A DNA stretch of 64,000 nt from Pseudomonadota bacterium (GTDB lineage: Bacteria; Pseudomonadota; Gammaproteobacteria; Steroidobacterales; Steroidobacteraceae), in NCBI GenBank assembly GCA_026398735.1, contig JAPLSH010000004.1:1-64000 (forward strand), read 5' to 3'. The translations under genes and the position numbers were made by a program. The notes below the pieces were generated by a model. The model searched no databases. It was given only the letters and a program-made list of their open reading frames with translations, and was not told the origin of the DNA. Position 1 is the first letter of the stretch. The number at the start of each line of letters is the position of its first letter. This document shows, piece by piece, positions 27,232-38,517 of this stretch.

Positions 27232-29658
27232 TTAAGCGGCGGGCTGTTGAACCTGATATTCGCTCTGGAGCGATAGGTTGATAGAGGCCTGCGGGCGGGC
27301 GAAGTAGTAGCCCTGCGCATAACGGCAACCCAACGACTGCAAGGCAGCCACTTGTTCGGCATTTTCGACACCCTCGGCCACAGTTTCGCGACCCAGGTTT
27401 TCGATCAGCAGCAACGTGGCATGCACCAGCGCCATCACATCCGGACGCGTGCTGATGTCGCGCAGAAACGAACGGTCGATCTTGATCACGTCGAAGGGAT
27501 AGTCACGCAAGCAAGCCAGCGACGACGTGCCAGTGCCAAAGTCGTCCATCGCCAAGCGCACGCCGGTCGCACGCAGCGCCACCATCAGTTGCTGCGAAGA
27601 ATCCGGGTCACGCATCACTTCGCGCTCAGTGACTTCCAGTTGCAAACAGCTAGCCGGCAGGCCTGTGGCGGCCAACACATTGCTGACTCTGGTGAGCAAC
27701 CGATCGCCCAAGGCCAGCTCGGCGCGCGACACGTTGACGCTGACTACTAGCGGCGCGCTTTCGGCATTATTGGTGCGCCAGTTGGCGAGCATCCGGCAAG
27801 CCTCCTGCAACACCCATTCACCGATGGCGACAATCAGACCAGATTCTTCGGCGACGGGAATGAATTCGGTCGGCGAGATCGCACCCATCTCTGGATGATT
27901 CCAGCGCAGCAGCGCCTCGACCGCCACCGTACGGCCTGTCTCCAGTGAGACCACAGGCTGGTACACCAAAGAGAGCTGCTCCGTACCGAGCGCACGACGT
28001 AAGCCTTCTTCAATTGCAATGCGCCGAGTCAGGCGCACATGCATGGCTTCGTCAAACAACACATGACAGGCGCGCCCGGCGTGCTTGGCTTCATACATTG
28101 CAACGTCGGCATTGCGCACCACCGCCTCGGCGGTATCCATGCACTGCTCTGCGGTGACGATGCCGATACTGGCCGTCGAATACACATCGCGGCCGTGAAT
28201 GACGTAGGACTCGCGCAGTAACGCGATAAGGCTATCTGCTACAGGGATTGCAGCGGCAGCGTTTTCCAGTGTGTTGAGCAACACCAAAAACTCGTCGCCG
28301 CCAAAACGCGCAATCAGACTGCCACGGCTATCGGGCAGCTCTGGCAGACCCACCGTATTGAGCCACTGTCGTAGACGCTTGCTAATTTGCCGCAGCATTT
28401 CGTCGCCAGCTGCATGGCCAAGCGCATCGTTGACCACCTTGAAGCGATCGAAGTCCAGAAACAACACGGCATAGGTCGGTTGTTGCCTGGTGCGCACTGC
28501 ATCGAGCGACTGTTGCAGACGCTCAAGAAACAATGTGCGATTGGCCAGGCCTGTGAGCCGATCGCAACGCGCCGCTTCAGCCATCTCTTGCTCCAGCAAC
28601 TTGCGCTGGGAGATGTCCTGCATGAACGACCAAATCACGCGACGCCCTTGAGCGTCCGTCATGCCAATGCCGGTCATCAAGGCAGAAAACTCACTGCCAT
28701 CGCTACGACGCACCTCGCCCTCATGCGGTCCGTACTGATGCGTCTGCGCCAGTTCGTGCGCAGGCCACGGCGCGCTGTCGAGCCATGCCTCTGGTGCGAT
28801 GTCATCGTGGGTCAGACTCAGCAGATGCTCACGGCTGTGGCCCGTCGCGGTAACCAGCGCGTCGTTGACCTGCAAAAACTTTCCCGAACTGCAGTCATAC
28901 AAAGAGATGCCCAAGGGCGACAGTTCAAACAAGGAACGAAAGCTCTGCTCGTTTTCACGGGACCGTCCCTGCTCCTGGCGCAGGTCGCGGTTTAGCCGGA
29001 TACGATCCAGGCGGATGCGATGGATGCCCAGCGCCATCACCAACAACATCAGGCAGGAAGGCAGCAGGCCCAGCAGTGCTGTCTTGCGTGCCTCGGCGAT
29101 ACGGGCCATATAGGTATCTGCATTAGCAACTACACGCAGCGCCGCGATCGGTTTGCCTTGCTCATTGAGCACCGGTGCCCAAGCGGACAGCCAATAACCA
29201 CTCGGGCCTTTTACAGCTGCAGCACCAACGCGCAGTGTGCCGCGGGTCAGTGCGCCATCGCGCGCCTCGCGCTCGGCGACCTCTGTGGCACTTCGTAGCG
29301 CTTGATCGTCCACCAACTCCAAGCCCGCTTGCACACGCTCTTGGACGCTGCGTGTATCAAACTGCACCCGAGTCGCGGCACCTTCTGGCACAACAAGCTG
29401 CAGATAACGGATTTGCTGCGTTTCGGCCTGCAGGGCCTGCAGTGTTTGTTCGCGTGATGCAGAGGGTGTAGCCGACAGCTGTTTGGCAGCACTTTGAGTA
29501 AGATTCGACACCTGCAGCGTATAAACGTCGCGCATCGAAGAGAGCGTCATCACCCACATCGCCACCACGCCGGCAAACAGCGCCATCAAGGACGCAACGG
29601 CTACTGTCACGGTTTCCCGTGTAGCCTGACTGCGTTCTTTTTCTGTGGTTTGCGGCAT
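27232..29658 (-). CDS. PAS-GGDEF-EAL c-di-GMP turnover protein (membrane)
   Basis: The 808 residues comprise a transmembrane helix, a periplasmic sensor region (to about 205), a second helix (LLGLLPSCLMLLVMALGIH), and a PAS domain (SFRSLFELSPLGISLYD). These are followed by an intact GGDEF domain (RFGGDEFLVLL) and an EAL domain with VEALLRWNHPEMG, LEVTEREVM, MDDFGTGTSS and AEGVENAEQ. Both catalytic motifs are intact, so it may be bifunctional. It is flanked by HDOD genes on both sides and starts divergently from the downstream one. Confidence 0.95.
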   Translation of the reverse strand: MPQTTEKERSQATRETVTVAVASLMALFAGVVAMWVMTLSSMRDVYTLQVSNLTQSAAKQLSATPSASREQTLQALQAETQQIRYLQLVVPEGAATRVQFDTRSVQERVQAGLELVDDQALRSATEVAEREARDGALTRGTLRVGAAAVKGPSGYWLSAWAPVLNEQGKPIAALRVVANADTYMARIAEARKTALLGLLPSCLMLLVMALGIHRIRLDRIRLNRDLRQEQGRSRENEQSFRSLFELSPLGISLYDCSSGKFLQVNDALVTATGHSREHLLSLTHDDIAPEAWLDSAPWPAHELAQTHQYGPHEGEVRRSDGSEFSALMTGIGMTDAQGRRVIWSFMQDISQRKLLEQEMAEAARCDRLTGLANRTLFLERLQQSLDAVRTRQQPTYAVLFLDFDRFKVVNDALGHAAGDEMLRQISKRLRQWLNTVGLPELPDSRGSLIARFGGDEFLVLLNTLENAAAAIPVADSLIALLRESYVIHGRDVYSTASIGIVTAEQCMDTAEAVVRNADVAMYEAKHAGRACHVLFDEAMHVRLTRRIAIEEGLRRALGTEQLSLVYQPVVSLETGRTVAVEALLRWNHPEMGAISPTEFIPVAEESGLIVAIGEWVLQEACRMLANWRTNNAESAPLVVSVNVSRAELALGDRLLTRVSNVLAATGLPASCLQLEVTEREVMRDPDSSQQLMVALRATGVRLAMDDFGTGTSSLACLRDYPFDVIKIDRSFLRDISTRPDVMALVHATLLLIENLGRETVAEGVENAEQVAALQSLGCRYAQGYYFARPQASINLSLQSEYQVQQPAA

Positions 29659-29750
29659 TTGGGTAGTGATCGTCTAGGGTCTGAGATCATCCTCTGCAGG
29701 TGTTTGGGGTTCTGTGATTAAGGTCACGCCAACGCTTCGCGACTGGAGTG

Positions 29751-30653
29751 ATGCTTCACACCCTCATGAACACCCACGCCGCTGCAGACCCTTTTGATTT
29801 GGTGCCCGCGATCCTGCGAGCCGCTGGAAATTTGGGTTTTGTAGGTACTAATTCTGCGACGGCAGGACGACTGCTGGCCGCGCTGTGCAATCCAACAATC
29901 ACGCTTGATGAGTTGTCGAACTTGCTCAGTTCCGAACCGGCGTTGGTCGTGCGCGTGCTGCGCGTTGCCAACTCGGCGTTCTATGGTGTCTCGCGCAGTA
30001 TCTCGACAGTCGATCGCGCGCTGATGGTGTTGGGTTTCGATTCAGTGCGCAGCGTCGCTGCCGCAGCCTGTCTGGATCGCGGACTGGCACATGCCACGCA
30101 AAGTGCAGCGCTGGACCATCACGCGATGGTGCGCCACAGCCTCACCACTGCTGTCGCCGCCGAATCCATTGCCAGACTCGTGCAACGCGATCTGGCAGGT
30201 GAGGCGTTCATCGCCGGTCTGCTGCACAACTTGGGTTTACCGGTACAAGCTGTCATCGATGCGCCAGGCCTGCGCGCGCTGGCCGCTGCACTGCGTGCCG
30301 GTAAGAGTGACAATTACCGGCAACTAGAGCGCAGCACGTTGCGCGTCCCGCACGAAGAATGTGCCGCCGTCGTGTTTGAGCAATGGCAGTTGCCGGATTC
30401 ATTGATCGAGGCGACGCGTTGGCACCACGCACCGCTGTTTGCACCGGGCCCTCACAAGTGGCTGGCGGCTGTGCTGGGCCTGGCCTTGGGTCTGGCGTCA
30501 GAGGTCGGTCACGGCTTTGAACTGGAGCCGCCGCCGATACTGCGGGATCCGGACCTGATGTATTTCGTTGGTGTAACCAACGATATGTTGGATCAGATCA
30601 GTGACGAGCTGGTCAAACGTAGCGCTCTGATCCGGCTGGCCACCGGCGACTGA
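29751..30653 (+). CDS. Soluble HDOD-domain protein
   Basis: This HDOD-type protein (about 300 residues) lacks a membrane segment. Conserved blocks are LSNLLSSEPALVVRVLRVANSAFYGVSRS, VDRALMVLGFDSVRSVAAAACL and the HD-like AGLLHNLGLPVQ, where HN replaces HD, as usual for HDOD domains. Start candidates cluster at GTG 29748, ATG 29751 and ATG 29766; GGAG at 29745-29748 makes the choice unclear. It is divergent from the GGDEF-EAL gene by about 90 bases, and the ammonium transporter follows. Confidence 0.85.
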   Translation: MLHTLMNTHAAADPFDLVPAILRAAGNLGFVGTNSATAGRLLAALCNPTITLDELSNLLSSEPALVVRVLRVANSAFYGVSRSISTVDRALMVLGFDSVRSVAAAACLDRGLAHATQSAALDHHAMVRHSLTTAVAAESIARLVQRDLAGEAFIAGLLHNLGLPVQAVIDAPGLRALAAALRAGKSDNYRQLERSTLRVPHEECAAVVFEQWQLPDSLIEATRWHHAPLFAPGPHKWLAAVLGLALGLASEVGHGFELEPPPILRDPDLMYFVGVTNDMLDQISDELVKRSALIRLATGD

Positions 30654-30707: not shown

Positions 30708-32027
30708 ATGTCGGGGCTACCCATGCGATTCAAGGACACCGTGCGGCACACCTTTTTGGCCGCGGCACTGTCATGCGTTCCACTGAGCGCCCTGGCTCAA
30801 TCGCCGGTGGTCTCCCCTGCCGACACAGCGTGGGTACTGACCGCCACGGCGCTGGTGTTGTTGATGACACTGCCTGGCCTTGCACTGTTCTACGGTGGTC
30901 TGGTGCGCGGCAAGAACGCGCTGTCGATACTCATCCAGTGCTTTGCAATCACCGGCGTGGTGTCTTTGGTGTGGGTTGTCTGCGGTTACAGCCTGGCCTT
31001 CACCGATGGCGGTAGCGCACAAGCTTTCATCGGCGGTTGGGATCGCGCTTTGCTACGCGGTATGGATGCCACGTCGCTCAACGGCACTATCCCCGAAGCG
31101 GCCTTCATGATGTTCCAACTGACCTTTGCAGCGATCACCCCTGCGCTAGTGATCGGCGGCTATGCCGAACGCATTCGCTTTAGCGCAGTGCTGTGGTTCA
31201 GCGCCCTATGGGTGCTGCTGGTCTATGTGCCGGTTGCTCACTGGGTGTGGGGCGGTGGCTGGCTGGCAAAGTTTGGTGTGATGGATTTTGCTGGCGGCAT
31301 CGTGGTGCACGTCAATGCGGGCATGGCTGCGCTGGTGTGCGCCTTGGTGATTGGCCGGCGTCGCGGCTTTCCGCAGGTATCCATGGCACCGCACAGTCTG
31401 CCGCTAGTGGCCACCGGTGCAGGTCTGCTGTGGGTGGGCTGGTTCGGCTTCAATGGTGGCAGCGCGCTGGCGGCCAACGGCACTGCGGCGATGGCGGTGT
31501 TGTGTACGCATCTGGGCGCCTGCGGTGGCGCATTGGCGTGGATGACGCTGGAGTGGCGCCGCTATGGCAAGCCCAGCGCCTTGGGCTTGCTCACCGGTGT
31601 CGTGGCCGGCTTGGGCACCATCACCCCGGCCTCGGGTTTCACCAGTCCAATGGGTGCGATCGTGATCGGTCTATTAGCAGGCGTCGTGTGCTTCTACGCC
31701 ACGCAATGGATCAAGCGCGGCCTGCACATCGATGACTCACTGGATGTCTCGCCGGTGCATGGCGTAGGCGGCGTGTTGGGCACGTTACTGACGGCAGTGG
31801 TGGCCTCCACCGCACTGGGTGGCACTGGCTTTAGCGTACAAGCGGATGTGCTGTCGCAGCTGCATATTCAAGTGTTGGGCGTGGTGGCCACTATGGCCTG
31901 GTGCGGCGGCATCAGCTGGCTGTTGCTGCGCGTGCTGGATGCGACGCTGGGTCTGCGCGTCAGCGAAGAAGATGAGTCGGAGGGGCTGGACCTGGCTTCG
32001 CACGGCGAGCGCGGCTACAGCCCCTGA
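30708..32027 (+). CDS. amtB: Ammonium transporter
   Basis: Amt proteins are trimeric ammonia channels. A cleavable signal (LAAALSCVPLSALA) precedes about 11 transmembrane segments. The twin pore histidines are in GGIVVHVNAGMA and SPVHGVGGVLG, and the PEAAFMMFQLTFAAITPALVIGGYAERI block contains the phenylalanine-gate region. I found no -24/-12 element upstream; CATAAT at about 30687-30692 is a possible -10. No glnK is adjacent; the P-II gene is at 6.1 kb. ATG 30723 is an alternative start. Confidence 0.94.
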   Translation: MSGLPMRFKDTVRHTFLAAALSCVPLSALAQSPVVSPADTAWVLTATALVLLMTLPGLALFYGGLVRGKNALSILIQCFAITGVVSLVWVVCGYSLAFTDGGSAQAFIGGWDRALLRGMDATSLNGTIPEAAFMMFQLTFAAITPALVIGGYAERIRFSAVLWFSALWVLLVYVPVAHWVWGGGWLAKFGVMDFAGGIVVHVNAGMAALVCALVIGRRRGFPQVSMAPHSLPLVATGAGLLWVGWFGFNGGSALAANGTAAMAVLCTHLGACGGALAWMTLEWRRYGKPSALGLLTGVVAGLGTITPASGFTSPMGAIVIGLLAGVVCFYATQWIKRGLHIDDSLDVSPVHGVGGVLGTLLTAVVASTALGGTGFSVQADVLSQLHIQVLGVVATMAWCGGISWLLLRVLDATLGLRVSEEDESEGLDLASHGERGYSP

Positions 32028-32042: not shown

Positions 32043-33410
32043 TTAATCCTCTGCGGTCTGGCGAAAGTCCACGCCCAATGAGCGCAGCTTGCGATACAGG
32101 TGGGTGCGCTCCATACCCACCCGCTTGGCCAGCAGGCCCACCTTGCCGTTGCACAGCGTCAGCTGCTGCTGCAGGTAGGCGCGTTCGAACATCTCGCGTG
32201 CTTCGCGCAGTGGCAACGCCAACAGATCTTGTTTGACCAAAGGCTCCACGCCCGGCGAATGAGCCGACAGTTCGCGCTCGACTTGTTCGAGGGAGATCTC
32301 TTCGAGTCCACCCATCACCAACATGCGGCGCACCAACCCGCGCAACTCACGCACATTGCCCGGCCAGGGGTAATTGCGCAGCCGGTTTTGCGCTGCAACG
32401 CTAAAGCGACGGAACGTCAGCCGTTCGGTGTCGACCAGACGATCGACGTGGTAACGCAGCAGATCAGGCACGTCCTCGGCGTAATCACGCAGCGGTGGCA
32501 CGCGCACCAGCAGTGTATCGAGCTGTGCCAGCAATTCACGGCGCACGCTGCCCGGCGAACCGGCGCGCAATTCGACACCGGGTTTGGCGGTAGCTACCAA
32601 GCGTGCGGCCAGCGGGCGCGATACATCACTGCCAGCAGCGCGCCAGCTGCCGGATTCAAGCACGCCCATCAACAAGCGCTGAGCGGCCGGCGAGAGTTCT
32701 TCGATGTCGCTGATAAACAGCGTGCCGGCGCCAGCTTGCTCGAACAGCCCAGGGTGCGCGGACTCGCCAGTACCGGTACCAAACAGCACGGACTCCACTT
32801 CGCTGTCGACGATGGCACTGGCCACCAGGCAGACAAACGGCAATGCGGCACGCGAACCCGACTCATGGACAAAGCGTGCCAGTGACTCGCGCAGCGTGCC
32901 CGACTCGCCCACCAGCAGCAGCGGCGAGGCGTGCGGCGCAGCGGCCTGCAGATCCGCGCGCAGCTGTTGTGTTGCACGACTCTTGCCGACCGTGGCCAAC
33001 AGGGGTGCGGCTCCGGCCTTGGCAGCGACACGCTTGCGACGCCCGGCCTCAAGCGCGCGCTCGACTGTGCGCAGCAGCTTGGCCAGCGATAGCGGCTTCT
33101 CGACAAAATCAAATGCGCCAAGACGCGTTGCCTCGACTGCCGTCTCGACCGTACCGTGACCGGACATCATGACGACGGCGCAATCATCGCCGGGCAGGCG
33201 CGACCATTCGCGCAGCAGCGAGATGCCATCGACATCGGGCATCCAGATGTCGAGCAACACCAGATCCGGACTCATGCGTTCACGCGCAGTGCGGGCCTGT
33301 GCCGCATCGGCAGCGACCTCCACCTCATAGCCCTCGTCGGAGAGGATGTCGCGCACCAGCGTACGGATGTCCGCCTCGTCATCAACCACCAGCACTTTGC
33401 CTGCACTCAT
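32043..33410 (-). CDS. ntrX: NtrX-like response regulator with degenerate AAA+ domain
   Basis: The 455 residues have the receiver-AAA+-Fis layout of NtrC-family regulators. The receiver is intact (acidic pair DDE, phospho-acceptor Asp54 in LLDIWMP, Lys105 in VEKPL). The AAA+ domain is not. Walker A reads GESGTLRE (168-175) instead of GESGTGKE, the GAFTGA sigma-54 loop is missing (LFGTGTGESAHPG, 209-221), Walker B reads GTLFISD for GTLFLDE, and the arginine-finger region reads VRRELLAQL. The C-terminal Fis-type helix-turn-helix (AKRVGMERTHLYRKLRSLGV) is intact. It lies 11 bases downstream of ntrY. It probably acts as a plain DNA-binding regulator. Confidence 0.9.
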   Translation of the reverse strand: MSAGKVLVVDDEADIRTLVRDILSDEGYEVEVAADAAQARTARERMSPDLVLLDIWMPDVDGISLLREWSRLPGDDCAVVMMSGHGTVETAVEATRLGAFDFVEKPLSLAKLLRTVERALEAGRRKRVAAKAGAAPLLATVGKSRATQQLRADLQAAAPHASPLLLVGESGTLRESLARFVHESGSRAALPFVCLVASAIVDSEVESVLFGTGTGESAHPGLFEQAGAGTLFISDIEELSPAAQRLLMGVLESGSWRAAGSDVSRPLAARLVATAKPGVELRAGSPGSVRRELLAQLDTLLVRVPPLRDYAEDVPDLLRYHVDRLVDTERLTFRRFSVAAQNRLRNYPWPGNVRELRGLVRRMLVMGGLEEISLEQVERELSAHSPGVEPLVKQDLLALPLREAREMFERAYLQQQLTLCNGKVGLLAKRVGMERTHLYRKLRSLGVDFRQTAED

Positions 33411-33421
33411 GACACCACCCT

Positions 33422-35620
33422 CTACGGTTGCGCGAAGTGTTCCCGCCCTGTAACCGGCAATTTGACGCGTACCGACGCGCCGCCTTCAGGCCTATTCTCA
33501 ACTGCTATCCGGCCACCGTGCTCTTCTATTATTTTTTTCACGATAGCCAGGCCAAGGCCCGTGCCTTTCTGCTTACTCGTCACATAAGGATCGAACACCC
33601 GCGGCAGCATCTGCGGCTGGAAGCCCGGTCCATTATCAGAAACTACCAGCTGCACACCCTCTTGGTCTGCACCCGCCAGCGCTGATGTTTTTAACTCTAC
33701 CCAACCCCCCGGCGCCGCACCGACCGCTTCGATGGCATTGCTCAGTAGATTGTTGAGCACCTGACGCAAGCGCGCCGCATCGGCCCTGATCCAGTGCTCG
33801 CCAGCGTCAGCCACCACGCGGATCTCGATGCCGCCGTCCTGAGCACGATACAACTCGGCGACCTCGGTCACCAGCGCATCCAGGCTGCAGCGCGCCAGAT
33901 GCAGCTCGGGGGCCCGCGCATATTCGCTAAAGGCGTTGACCATCGACTTCATCGACTCCACTTGCTGCACGATGGTGTGCGTGGAGCGCTCCAACAGCTC
34001 GAGGTCGGCCGGATTTGGCAAATGCCCCTGTAGCCGGCTGCGCAAGCGCTCGGCCGACAGCTGGATAGGTGTCAGCGGGTTTTTGATCTCATGGGCCAGT
34101 CGACGCGCCACTTCGCCCCAAGCCGCATCGCGCTGCGCTTGCAACAGCGCAGTGATGTCATCAAACACAATCACAAAGCCCGGCTCTCCGGCAGCTTCGT
34201 CCAAAGGCGAACACGCGCAGCTGAGTACCCGCTCGTTGGGCAATTTAAGCTGTTCGCGCCACTCAGACCGCGGGCCCTGAACCCGCTGCGACAACTGCTG
34301 CACAAAGCCCAGCAACCGCTCGTCGCGGCCCTCGCCCAACTCCAGCAAGCTGCGGCCGATATCCGCACCCAGATCAGCACCGAGAATAGAGCCGGCCGCC
34401 TCATTGACGATGCGCAGCCGCAGTTGCGGGTCAAGCACCATCACGCCCGTCGACAAACCTGCCAACAACACGGACAGCTGCTGACGCTCCTGTTCAACTA
34501 TCTGCCGGCTGCGCGTGGCCTCTTCGCTGGCCCGACGCAAGCGCTTGGTCATGTCATTAAAAGAATGCACCAGCGAACCCATTTCATCGCGCGACGGCAG
34601 TGGCAGTCGCGTATCGAAATCACCCTTGCCCACTGCACGAGTGCCGGCAATCAAATCCTGCACCGGGCGGATCAGCCGCTTGGCCGAGGAAATAGCCAGA
34701 TAAATGGCCAGCAACATGGCCAGCAGCACCACCATGGTCAGCGTCAATTGAAAGCTGGTTTTGAGCGGTTCGCGCATCAGCGCCAATTCGCCGTATTGCG
34801 AATAGGTGTGCTGTACCGCTTCAGAGAGCCCAGCCAGTTGGCGCGGCACTTCATGCACTGCCAGCACAAAACGCGGTCCATCAGCACCCAAACGACCCGC
34901 CGACGGAATCGGTGCCGCAGCGATGATGTAGTAGCCGCCGTCGGACTGCGGCTCAAGACTGACGTAGGGCCGACCATCATTGACCTGCAACAGCAACTCG
35001 GTGGGCGTGGCTGGTGCCGGCAGTTCGGCTGTACCTGCAGCACTGGACGCCAGCAGCTCGCCATTGCGGCCATAGGCCAACAGTTGCAATGCTCCGGTGC
35101 GGCGGCGCTCCGCTTCCAGATCTCGCAACAGCAGCGAGGCAGAAGCACCATCAAGCGTGCGGGCAAACGTCTCGGCGCTGCGGCCCTGTTCGCGCATGCG
35201 CAGATCCAGCGATGCGCGCGACAGCACCAAGGCATCGGCCAAGCCCTGTTTGACTTCGACCCGGAACCAGCTATCGATGCCGCGATTGATGAAGTCGAGT
35301 GAGAACAGATAAACGATCAGCAGCGGCGCCACCACCAGCGAACCGAAGGTGGCCACAGTACGCACCGTAAGACGCGAGCCGGGCACGTTGGCGCGATAGT
35401 CGCGATACAGCTGCCACAAGCGGCGCGCCAACGCGCTGGCCAACAACACCAGCGCGCTGGCATTGAGCAACAAGATCCACGGTTGCCAACGGCCGAAGCT
35501 GGCGGAGTTCTCGACACTGCCGGCCAACATGGCCAGCGAGACCAGCGCCAGCAGCACGCCCAGTGCCGCCAGCACCCAACTGCCATAGCGCCTCAGCGGG
35601 GCAGTTGCCACGCATACCAC
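33422..35620 (-). CDS. ntrY: NtrY-like sensor histidine kinase
   Basis: The 732 residues have two N-terminal helices, a third at TVATFGSLVVAPLLIVYLFSL, a periplasmic sensor region and a further helix (LTLTMVVLLAMLLAIYLAI). Then follow HAMP (RPVQDLIAGTRAVGKGDFDT), PAS, and the kinase core with H-box RRLAHEIKNPLTPIQLSAERL, N-box LNNLLSNAIEAV, and G-boxes VSDNGPGF and GTGLGLAIVKKI. This is the NtrY architecture. ATG 35620 overlaps the DUF4390 gene by 28 bases; GTG 35611 is also possible. It is paired with ntrX and downstream of rsmB and DUF4390 on the same strand. Confidence 0.92.
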   Translation of the reverse strand: MVCVATAPLRRYGSWVLAALGVLLALVSLAMLAGSVENSASFGRWQPWILLLNASALVLLASALARRLWQLYRDYRANVPGSRLTVRTVATFGSLVVAPLLIVYLFSLDFINRGIDSWFRVEVKQGLADALVLSRASLDLRMREQGRSAETFARTLDGASASLLLRDLEAERRRTGALQLLAYGRNGELLASSAAGTAELPAPATPTELLLQVNDGRPYVSLEPQSDGGYYIIAAAPIPSAGRLGADGPRFVLAVHEVPRQLAGLSEAVQHTYSQYGELALMREPLKTSFQLTLTMVVLLAMLLAIYLAISSAKRLIRPVQDLIAGTRAVGKGDFDTRLPLPSRDEMGSLVHSFNDMTKRLRRASEEATRSRQIVEQERQQLSVLLAGLSTGVMVLDPQLRLRIVNEAAGSILGADLGADIGRSLLELGEGRDERLLGFVQQLSQRVQGPRSEWREQLKLPNERVLSCACSPLDEAAGEPGFVIVFDDITALLQAQRDAAWGEVARRLAHEIKNPLTPIQLSAERLRSRLQGHLPNPADLELLERSTHTIVQQVESMKSMVNAFSEYARAPELHLARCSLDALVTEVAELYRAQDGGIEIRVVADAGEHWIRADAARLRQVLNNLLSNAIEAVGAAPGGWVELKTSALAGADQEGVQLVVSDNGPGFQPQMLPRVFDPYVTSKQKGTGLGLAIVKKIIEEHGGRIAVENRPEGGASVRVKLPVTGREHFAQP

Positions 35621-36198
35621 TCGCTGTTGCGATGCCAGCCATCAGACCACCAGATGACACTGCGCAGCGCGTCGGGCAGGTTGCCGCGGCGCACGCTGGC
35701 GCGGACCTTGATTTGGTAGGTAGCGGCCGGCTCCAGTTGCGACTCGACCATCACCGGCCAGTTGTCAATGCTGCCGATCGCCTGCAAGGCCTGATCGATG
35801 GTGGTGTAACTGCCCACTTCGCTGTGCTCGGCATCGCGCACCACGAAACGCTCACTGACCATGTGCCAGGACAACTCGCGATGCACGTTCAGATCAACTA
35901 CGGTGGCATCGCTCCAGAAGCGCCGCTGCCGCAGCACCACCGTTTGGAAATCGAACTGCAAAGACACGCCATCTTTGAGCGCGGCGCGGATGTCTTCGTT
36001 GAGCGGATACGCCGAGCGCGCCACCAGTTTGTAGACGCCATTGTCGACGACCACATAGGCCGACAGCACATCCAACGGGCCATCGAGCGCATCGGCAGAC
36101 ACCAGAGCGGGGATTAGCAACGCCCACGCGAACGCCAGCGCTGCCGCAATGCGGCGGCACCAGGCGATAACCGGCGGTGTCGTGTGCTTAAGCCCCAT
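35593..36198 (-). CDS. DUF4390 family exported protein
   Basis: The 201-residue protein has a signal peptide (IAAALAFAWALLIPALVSA) and a beta-rich body (YVVVDNGVYKLVARSAYPLN, SVIWWSDGWHRNSEWYAWQLP). This is DUF4390, usually found next to rsmB and ntrY in gammaproteobacteria; its function is unknown. I chose ATG 36198, which overlaps the rsmB stop by 11 bases, since the upstream in-frame residues are coded inside rsmB. It is likely co-transcribed with rsmB upstream and ntrYX downstream. Confidence 0.85.
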   Translation of the reverse strand: MGLKHTTPPVIAWCRRIAAALAFAWALLIPALVSADALDGPLDVLSAYVVVDNGVYKLVARSAYPLNEDIRAALKDGVSLQFDFQTVVLRQRRFWSDATVVDLNVHRELSWHMVSERFVVRDAEHSEVGSYTTIDQALQAIGSIDNWPVMVESQLEPAATYQIKVRASVRRGNLPDALRSVIWWSDGWHRNSEWYAWQLPR

Positions 36199-37570
36199 GG
36201 TGCGGGCCGTCCCCCTTTTGCAGGCAAGCATAATAGAAGCCATCGCTGGCTGCCTCGGGCCCCACAGCGGCTGGCCGCGGCAGCAACTGTACGTCGCCTT
36301 CGCCGCGTGGCACGCGCGGCGGCAGATTCAACTCGCGCGCCTGCAGCAATCGCGTGCCACCCCAGTCACCCGCCAGCACCTGCTCGATGACCTCGCGGTT
36401 CTCCTGCGGCAACACCGAGCAGGTGGCATACACCAGCCTGCCGCCGGGACGCAGCAGCTTGAGCGCGGCGCGTGTCAGCGCCAACTGCTGACGCACAAAG
36501 CCGGCGATGTCAGTCGAACGACGCAGCAGTTTGATATCGGGATGACGGCGGATCACACCGGTAGCAGAACATGGCGCATCGAGCAGGATGCGATCAAACA
36601 AGCGGCCATCCCACCAGGTCGGTTCAGCAGACAAGTCGGCACACACCAACGTCGCCTGCCGCCCCAGCCGCAACAGGTTGGACTCCACGCGTTGCAGGCG
36701 CAGGGCAGAGCTGTCGAGCGCAACCACCTCGAGATCCGCGGTGTGTTCGAGCAAGTGGCCGGTCTTGCCGCCCGGTGCGGCGCAAGCATCCAGCACGCGC
36801 TCGCCCGGCTGCGCATCCACCATCCAAGCGGCCACCTGGGCGCCGGCGTCCTGCACGCTGACACGGCCCTCGGCAAAGCCCGGCAAGGCCTCTACCGGTA
36901 CGGGGGTCTCGAGTACCAGCGCCGTGGGCACCAACCCCGGGGTCGCATTCAAGCCAGCAGCAACCAACGCGGCCAGGGCCTCTTCGCGTGTGCCGCGGCT
37001 CAGGTCGACTCGCAAGGTCATCGGCGGGGACTCGTTGCCAGCGGTCAGAATGTCCGCTGCCTGATCACCCCAGGCCGCATTGAGCGCCTTGAACAGCCAG
37101 CGCGGATGCGCCGCAGCAGTGGCCGGATCGGCATCGACCTGCGCAAACAGCGACTCGCCCTCCCGCACCAGCCGGCGCAGTGCGGCATTGACGAAGCCCG
37201 CAGCCGGCGCACAGCCCAGCAGCCGCGCGGCATCGACGGCGATGTTGACCGCCGACGCAGCCGGAGCACGTGAATAAATGACCTGATGCGCAGCCACTAT
37301 CAGCAGCGCATGCAACAGCGGCTGCGGCTTGCGATCGGGGCGCTGCTGTAGATGCTGCACCACTGCCGCCAAGCGCCGATACCAGCGCAGACTGCCGGTG
37401 AGAATGGCGCGTACTGCACCGCGCAGTTCGGGCGGCACCTGCACTGCGGTCAAGGCCTCTTCGGCAATCCAGCCACGAGTCACTACGACGTCGAGCGCTT
37501 GGGCAGCCAGTGCCAGCGCCGGCGAGCCCGGGGCGGCGACAGTGCGCGCAGGCGCCGTCACGAGAAACAC
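36188..37570 (-). CDS. rsmB: 16S rRNA (cytosine-967-C5)-methyltransferase
   Basis: RsmB methylates C967 of 16S rRNA. The 460 residues comprise the N-terminal NusB-like RNA-binding domain (LLHALLIVAAHQVIYS) and the Rossmann methyltransferase with DACAAPGGKTGHLLE (SAM), LLDAPCSATGVIRRHPD and the catalytic Cys in VYATCSVLPQEN. The start is GTG 37570 or GTG 37561; the latter forms a GTGA overlap with the fmt stop. Confidence 0.94.
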   Translation of the reverse strand: MFLVTAPARTVAAPGSPALALAAQALDVVVTRGWIAEEALTAVQVPPELRGAVRAILTGSLRWYRRLAAVVQHLQQRPDRKPQPLLHALLIVAAHQVIYSRAPAASAVNIAVDAARLLGCAPAAGFVNAALRRLVREGESLFAQVDADPATAAAHPRWLFKALNAAWGDQAADILTAGNESPPMTLRVDLSRGTREEALAALVAAGLNATPGLVPTALVLETPVPVEALPGFAEGRVSVQDAGAQVAAWMVDAQPGERVLDACAAPGGKTGHLLEHTADLEVVALDSSALRLQRVESNLLRLGRQATLVCADLSAEPTWWDGRLFDRILLDAPCSATGVIRRHPDIKLLRRSTDIAGFVRQQLALTRAALKLLRPGGRLVYATCSVLPQENREVIEQVLAGDWGGTRLLQARELNLPPRVPRGEGDVQLLPRPAAVGPEAASDGFYYACLQKGDGPHHGA

Positions 37571-38517
37571 CGGCCAGCACCGGCAGCGGTGCCCTCGGCA
37601 TTGGCAAAATCGCGCGCAGCCACCGCCCGGCGGCCGGCGCGTTGCAGTTCATCGATACCCAGCACACCGGTGCCACAGGCCACGGCCAAACTGCCGGCCT
37701 GCAAGCCCAGCAGCGTGCCCGGCACTGCGCCGGGTGGCGCCTCGTCAGACAGCACCCGACTACGCAACAGCTTGACCGGCTCGCCCGCATAGACCGCATG
37801 CGCCGCAGGCCAAGGATTGAAGGCGCGGATCTGGCGATCCAACTGCCGTGCCGGCTGCTGCCAGTCCAGTCGCGCCTCGTCGCGGGTGAGCTTGTCAGCC
37901 CAGGTCACGCCCTCGATCGGTTGCGCCGTGGCGTGTAGCGTACCGGCCTGCAGGCCGTCGATCGTCTGCAACAGCAGCTCGGCGCCCAGCGGCGCCAGCG
38001 CGTCGTGCAGTTCTCCGGCCACCATGCCCGGGCCGATCGGCAGCGTCTGGCGCAACAGCATCGCGCCCGTATCCAAACCCTCATCCATCTGCATGATCGT
38101 CACACCACTCTCGATATCACCGGCCAGCACGGCCCGTTGAATAGGGGCCGCACCGCGCCAGCGGGGCAGCAGTGAAGCATGAATATTGAGGCAACCCAGC
38201 CTCGGCAGCGCCAGCACCTCGGGCGGCAGGATCAGCCCATAGGCCACCACCACCAGCAGGTCCAGCGACCAGTCACGCAGTTGCTGTCGGGCCGCCACCG
38301 CATCGGGCGCATCGCCACGCAGGCGCAGCGGCTGCAGCACCGGCAGGTTCAGTTCGAGCGCGCGCTGTTTGACCGCGCTGGGCGTCAGCACACGGCCCCG
38401 GCCGGCGGGCCTGTCGGGCTGGGTGAGTACGCCCAACACCGGGCCGCGCGCGGCCAGCGCCGACAATGCAGCGACCGCAAACGGCGGGGTGCCTGCGAAC
38501 GCGATTCGCAGGGTCAT
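37558..38517 (-). CDS. fmt: Methionyl-tRNA formyltransferase
   Basis: Fmt formylates initiator Met-tRNA using 10-formyl-THF. The 319 residues match, with [10 protein letters not shown] at the N-terminus and the signature [20 protein letters not shown], which holds the catalytic Asn-His region, followed by [17 protein letters not shown]. The C-terminal OB-like domain is present. The start overlaps the def stop (ATGA). Confidence 0.96.

Follow-up and report, generated by a model that had tools for sequence, protein, structure and literature searches.

We found that the ntrX gene in the 64,000-nucleotide stretch of DNA analyzed here (the window) encodes a response regulator whose receiver and DNA-binding domains are intact and whose AAA+ core has lost the Walker A Lys and the Walker B DE pair. 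Judged by its distribution among relatives, this protein appears to be a pseudo-ATPase form, found throughout its order, of a regulator family already known. We consider it likely that the window NtrX is a phosphorylation-controlled DNA-binding regulator of sigma-70 promoters, in which the AAA+ domain serves as a non-motor scaffold. Annotations usually present NtrX as an activator specific for sigma-54, yet the sigma-54 loop was missing from every NtrX examined; one bacterial order has also lost the ATPase site, and ntrX survives the loss of sigma-54. The features on which the analysis rests are the following.

35593..38517 (-), operon context: DUF4390 gene, rsmB and fmt (DUF4390 by Pfam; neighborhood shared with relatives)
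33422..35620 (-), ntrY, a 732-aa sensor kinase, HAMP-PAS-HisKA-HATPase, catalytic boxes present (Pfam; HEIKNP and GTGLGL in the translation)
32043..33410 (-), ntrX, 455 aa: receiver, pseudo-AAA+ core, lid and Fis-type HTH (Pfam)
33045..33410 (-), receiver domain, residues 1-122, with a complete phospho-acceptor pocket (Pfam)
33249..33251 (-), Asp54 codon, phospho-acceptor (D in 244/244 NtrX)
32496..32990 (-), AAA+ core, residues 141-305, fold predicted intact, catalytic residues lost (Pfam, model)
32886..32909 (-), Walker A, residues 168-175, GESGTLRE; Lys to Arg174, preceding Gly to Leu173 (alignment)
32739..32786 (-), loop 1 without GAFTGA, LFGTGTGESAHPGLFE (alignment)
32694..32723 (-), Walker B, TLFISDIEEL; DE to SD (alignment)
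32520..32549 (-), arginine-finger segment SVRRELLAQL, residues 288-297; R290 kept, second finger Gln296 (alignment)
32256..32495 (-), AAA+ lid (Pfam; strongly conserved)
32343-32366 (-), sensor II WPGNVREL, kept, within the lid (alignment)
32061..32228 (-), Fis-type HTH, residues 395-450, the order's most conserved domain (Pfam)

The start of ntrX lies 11 bp behind the stop of the intact ntrY, and the gene directly follows ntrY in an rsmB-DUF4390-ntrY-ntrX neighborhood, the position that marks an NtrX orthologue; ntrY was upstream of ntrX in 80/80 related loci. The two genes farther upstream are presumably rsmB and fmt, given the conserved gene order. By phmmer, the closest solved protein was Brucella NtrX (5m7n, E 1.4e-76), and in a tree of 117 NtrX rows and two own-genome activators the window gene fell with NtrX, away from the other activators. 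Its score with the NCBIfam NtrX equivalog model NF051870 was 353 bits, under the curated cut-off of 600, which only 30/120 genomes in a phylum-wide draw reached. Because operon position and tree agree, and few genomes of the phylum pass that cut-off, we regard the gene as a gammaproteobacterial NtrX orthologue and not as an NF051870 member, and the identity given to it by the first-pass annotation holds.

On the other side of ntrX, a convergent ammonium transporter gene (30708-32027) ends 15 bp from the ntrX stop. Close upstream of the transporter gene is a 301-aa ORF (29748-30653) whose translation looks like an HDOD protein, and a minus-strand ORF of 808 aa (27232-29658) reads in translation like a PAS, GGDEF, EAL sensor. 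Where the window has amt after ntrX, other members of the order carry an ArgS-like gene in convergent orientation; outside the order (L057 and L080, set against L010, L016, L030 and L050), ntrX is followed by a 460-466 aa ORF and a TrkH-like ORF, presumably TrkA and TrkH given their usual gene order. The tail of the ntrX operon changed at about the time of ATPase-site loss. We note that one record titled as a Klebsiella pneumoniae MAG (L032, CAMCBU010000002.1) carries the order's ntrYX neighborhood, and its title looks wrong. Scanning the window for Rfam families, tRNAs and repeats gave nothing of relevance.

The span singled out by the first-pass annotation, 32520-32909, runs exactly from Walker A to the arginine-finger motif on the minus-strand ORF. 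Inspection of these motifs bore out the loss of the Walker A Lys (GESGTLRE) and the preservation of Asp54 and the Fis helix-turn-helix; D10, D11, D54, S83 and K105 are all retained, and the last three are invariant or nearly so across 244 aligned NtrX. Two of its other claims needed trimming. The Walker B DE pair is lost as stated, with SD in its place, but the acid is not gone altogether, since one remains at a shifted position. Likewise, the arginine finger is altered only in its second residue (Gln296), the first, R290, being intact; the sensor-II Arg is retained as well. The protein thus lacks what is expected of a sigma-54 activator (bEBP), both the GAFTGA loop and the Walker A Lys with the Walker B DE, while the AAA+ fold of the Sigma54_activat family is present (Pfam PF00158, 86.8 bits, with a fold match). 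An AlphaFold2 model built from a 34-sequence alignment had a mean pLDDT of 84.9, mostly about 90 in the AAA core, and in a fold search the AAA region matched the FleQ AAA+ domain with Z 29 and an rmsd of 1.9 over 245 residues. At full length, Brucella NtrX entries matched best, with a high rmsd that presumably reflects a different domain placement. The AAA+ fold is therefore predicted to be preserved in the window NtrX; a shared fold shows no function.

The own genome served as a control. It carries rpoN and eight other strong sigma-54-activator matches, one of them an NtrC-like protein on the same contig as ntrX. All eight are canonical in the Walker A Lys and the Walker B DE, and their loop is GAFTGA or a GSFTGA/GAYTGA variant. 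This rules out a genome-wide loss of sigma-54, makes the change specific to NtrX and places its motif pattern far beyond chance for the domain family. The ntrX ORF is open, and because a same-genus genome whose NtrX is 98% identical (G021, L091) has identical changes, a base-call error is ruled out; relatives with the same changes rule out a strain-specific loss too.

We further compared motif states among relatives. Of 269 aligned loci, 268 gave an ORF; removal of 17 identical rows left 251 distinct sequences, or 244 NtrX once seven own-genome activators were set aside. Asp54 was found in 244/244, and GAFTGA in none of these gammaproteobacterial NtrX. Nor was GAFTGA found in any of 30 alphaproteobacterial NtrX, a set of sequences above the NCBIfam cut-off whose class was inferred from the phylum draw; the same set kept the Walker A Lys in 30/30 and DE in 29/30. 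The missing GAFTGA, which had been read as part of a local erosion, is thus real but not local, being common to every gamma- and alphaproteobacterial NtrX examined. The Walker A Lys was seen in 0/1 own, 0/5 same-genus, 0/38 same-family and 2/39 same-order sequences, in 11/80 public contigs and in a single divergent second copy (1/1). The latter is a second NtrX of a same-genus genome (L213, G093:C89:2621-3976), 47% identical, for which paralogy, transfer and contamination are all conceivable. Viral contigs gave only one partial relative, of no use. Across the 83 sequences of the order as a whole, the Lys position holds Arg in 79, Pro in 2 and Lys in 2, and Lys, Asp and Glu never occur together (0/83). 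The class-level rows, 80 chosen from 171 genomes with a match and biased to better-scoring matches so that strongly divergent NtrX are under-sampled, kept the Lys in 71/80 and all three residues in 21/80. The first-pass annotation had proposed aligning NtrX of related genera and had held that intact motifs in close relatives would mark a strain-specific loss or error; close relatives proved degenerate too, and the degeneration is clade-wide, with Lys missing in 81/83 sequences of the order.

The tree mentioned above was built from 119 rows without the motif columns; it came from a quick search with no bootstrap, and its two outgroup rows sit on long branches. One 64-row clade (SH-aLRT 100) takes in every order-level row used together with 2 class and 2 contig rows, and the Lys occurs in only 2/64 of its rows, both from the fast-evolving family f13. 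The minimum number of changes over the tree was 6 for the Walker A state, 19 for Walker B and 11 for the second finger. From the distribution of motifs and these counts, the loss of GAFTGA is old and general and that of Walker B and the second finger frequent, and the loss of Lys became fixed a single time in the order and arose independently in other groups as well. GAFTGA would then have been lost first, in the NtrX ancestor or early in NtrX; Walker B and the second arginine finger would have relaxed widely in Gammaproteobacteria, and the Walker A Lys-to-Arg change would have been fixed afterwards in the ancestor of the order.

We then assessed how strongly each domain is constrained. Among 12 pairs of related sequences, in several of which synonymous sites were near saturation, pN/pS was well below 1 for every domain except one value of 0.99 for an 18-residue linker. 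The AAA core exceeded the receiver in 12/12 pairs, always staying below 0.64, and the HTH and lid were strongly constrained. When pairs, which are not independent of one another, were matched at 60-75% receiver identity, mean identity of the AAA core was 41% in the order clade, 55% in Lys- and DE-keeping rows outside the order and 59% in Alphaproteobacteria; the corresponding HTH values were 85%, 59% and 74%. Relative to the receiver, the AAA core evolved at a ratio of 2.48 in the order clade versus 1.62 in Lys- and DE-keeping relatives, and the HTH at 0.42 versus 1.50. By the matched-pair identities, the order has relaxed its AAA core and tightened its DNA-binding domain.

The strongest evidence came from comparing NtrX matches with rpoN matches per genome, checked by a second sigma-54 domain. 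We did not find rpoN in G185 (same order, 99% complete) or G403 (another family, 98%). In each of these genomes NtrX alone matched PF00158 at an E-value of 1e-10 or lower, and it has an intact NtrY beside it, an intact receiver and HTH, and no Lys in Walker A. In family f13, whose genomes are 77-92% complete, rpoN was found in 0/10 genomes and NtrX in 10/10; ten concordant absences are unlikely to be assembly gaps. PF00158 was matched at 1e-5 in 0/10 of these genomes, their AAA core being unrecognizable to Pfam, and mean identity among the f13 sequences, four of which were called with a late start and one truncated (L344), was 71% in the receiver, 29% in the core region and 80% in the HTH. The persistence of NtrX where rpoN was not detected (G185, G403 and 10/10 f13) suggests a sigma-54-independent function, as the first-pass annotation had surmised, and is the best evidence for it. 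Five other apparently rpoN-free genomes (G311, G434, G480, G409 and G410) have 6-10 PF00158 matches each, with many canonical activators, and were set aside as assembly gaps, and a further one (G264, 99% complete) is ambiguous, with rpoN not found and two GAFTGA/GAFTDA activators present. Family f12 of the same order, with genomes of 2.2-3.1 Mb, had rpoN in 0/9 and NtrX in 0/9 and appears to have lost both, which speaks against a strict need for NtrX.

Taken together, these data suggest the following working model. The window NtrX would pair with an intact NtrY as its response regulator; NtrY would phosphorylate Asp54, and this would control both assembly into a dimer or higher form and the recognition of palindromic sites by the Fis-type HTH. 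Such sites would lie at ordinary sigma-70 promoters, activated by contact or repressed by occlusion. The AAA+ domain would still fold and hold receiver and HTH in the right arrangement, and would neither hydrolyze ATP nor contact sigma-54. Judging from the sequence, phosphorylation, DNA binding, this promoter class and the absence of ATPase activity are all probable. More tentatively, and short of calling it probable, we propose that the order turned a sigma-54 activator scaffold into a nucleotide-free or alternative-ligand phospho-switch, its AAA+ core serving only as linker and assembly platform and having changed beyond recognition in f13. If so, this would be a third way of building an NtrC-type regulator, one that outlives sigma-54 with receiver, lid and HTH fixed. 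Intact ATPase, Arg P-loop and unrecognizable core together form a natural series on which to test the part played by an AAA+ domain in a regulator where it is no motor.

A remodeled P-loop would account for part of the same data. Within the order clade that lacks Lys, its substitute Arg174 is conserved to at least 95%, as are G168, E169 and G171, which one would not expect had nucleotide binding merely been lost; the P-loop is thus not simply rotting, and its shape, or contact with an anion, may remain important. Arg174, matched by Arg in 79/83 order-level sequences, could bind ATP, ADP or an anionic nucleotide like c-di-GMP or ppGpp, with binding but not hydrolysis setting the oligomeric state. 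Brucella NtrX was crystallized with ATP and ADP according to its entry titles (5m7n, 5m7p), Rhodobacter capsulatus NtrC needs ATP binding and not hydrolysis, as described in the available part of PMC10274813, and FleQ and VpsR, both close folds, have c-di-GMP-bound entries by title. We gave no weight to c-di-GMP binding by analogy with FleQ, as the post-Walker Arg is also common to ordinary activators. We nevertheless think this remodeling unlikely, since the P-loop Gly is gone in the window NtrX as well (Leu173), variation is unrestrained at the Walker B acid and the sensor residues, Pro takes the place of Lys in two family members, and the whole f13 core escapes Pfam.

The remaining alternatives fare worse. 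NtrX might still contribute to sigma-54 activation by joining the intact activators of its own genome in mixed rings as a non-catalytic subunit; rpoN and eight such activators are present there, and R290 and sensor II are retained. Its persistence in G185, G403 and f13, where neither rpoN nor another strong activator match was detected, makes this very improbable. A scan of the window for sigma-54 promoters with at most 2 mismatches gave 69 matches versus 62 expected. It is hardly credible that ntrX is simply decaying on its way to loss: the AAA core is its fastest-evolving part, family f12 has no NtrX in 9 genomes, and one f13 ORF is truncated, but frames are full-length and open throughout the order, the pN/pS values bespeak constraint everywhere bar the linker, and the HTH shows stronger conservation than that of relatives which keep the ATPase. 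The phosphorylation-controlled, sigma-54-independent regulator described above is the reading we prefer.

Regulators of NtrC type that act without sigma-54 are already known. In the accessible portions of the literature searched, and by a search that was not exhaustive, we recognized no description of ATPase-motif loss in gammaproteobacterial NtrX, which seems to be new, though this is no proof of absence. NtrC of Rhodobacter capsulatus and Caulobacter resembles the window NtrX in having lost the sigma-54 loop, and regulates sigma-70 promoters, but differs in needing ATP binding or hydrolysis (PMC10274813, in part). In Caulobacter, both NtrC and NtrX lack GAFTGA, and NtrC, acting at sigma-70 promoters, still needs Walker A and B (same source); a missing GAFTGA alone thus does not imply ATP independence. 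VspR, VpsR and TyrR-type activators are likewise AAA+ regulators used without sigma-54, and VspR is reported as not requiring ATP (PMC10274813, in part); these proteins differ from NtrX in not being partners of NtrY.

Among NtrX proteins themselves, the excerpts available describe varied roles. Paracoccus NtrX is labeled a sigma-54-specific activator (PMC9409073), and Rhodobacter NtrX directly controls cell-envelope genes (PMC7240162). Sinorhizobium NtrX requires the phospho-Asp for DNA binding and can reduce expression when its site and a start site overlap; published NtrX sites, CAAN3-5TTG and GCAN9TGC, are short, and we judged them too unspecific for use here (PMC9223101). Ehrlichia resembles the genomes described here in keeping NtrX, though known for only sigma-70 and sigma-32, a retention termed puzzling (PMC9937504). 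The alphaproteobacterial NtrX (Brucella 5m7n, Rhodobacter, Sinorhizobium, Caulobacter) are the best full-length match to the window NtrX in both fold and sequence, and share with it the receiver-AAA-HTH architecture, the paired NtrY and the absence of GAFTGA; they keep the Walker A Lys and the DE pair, however, and the window NtrX has neither.
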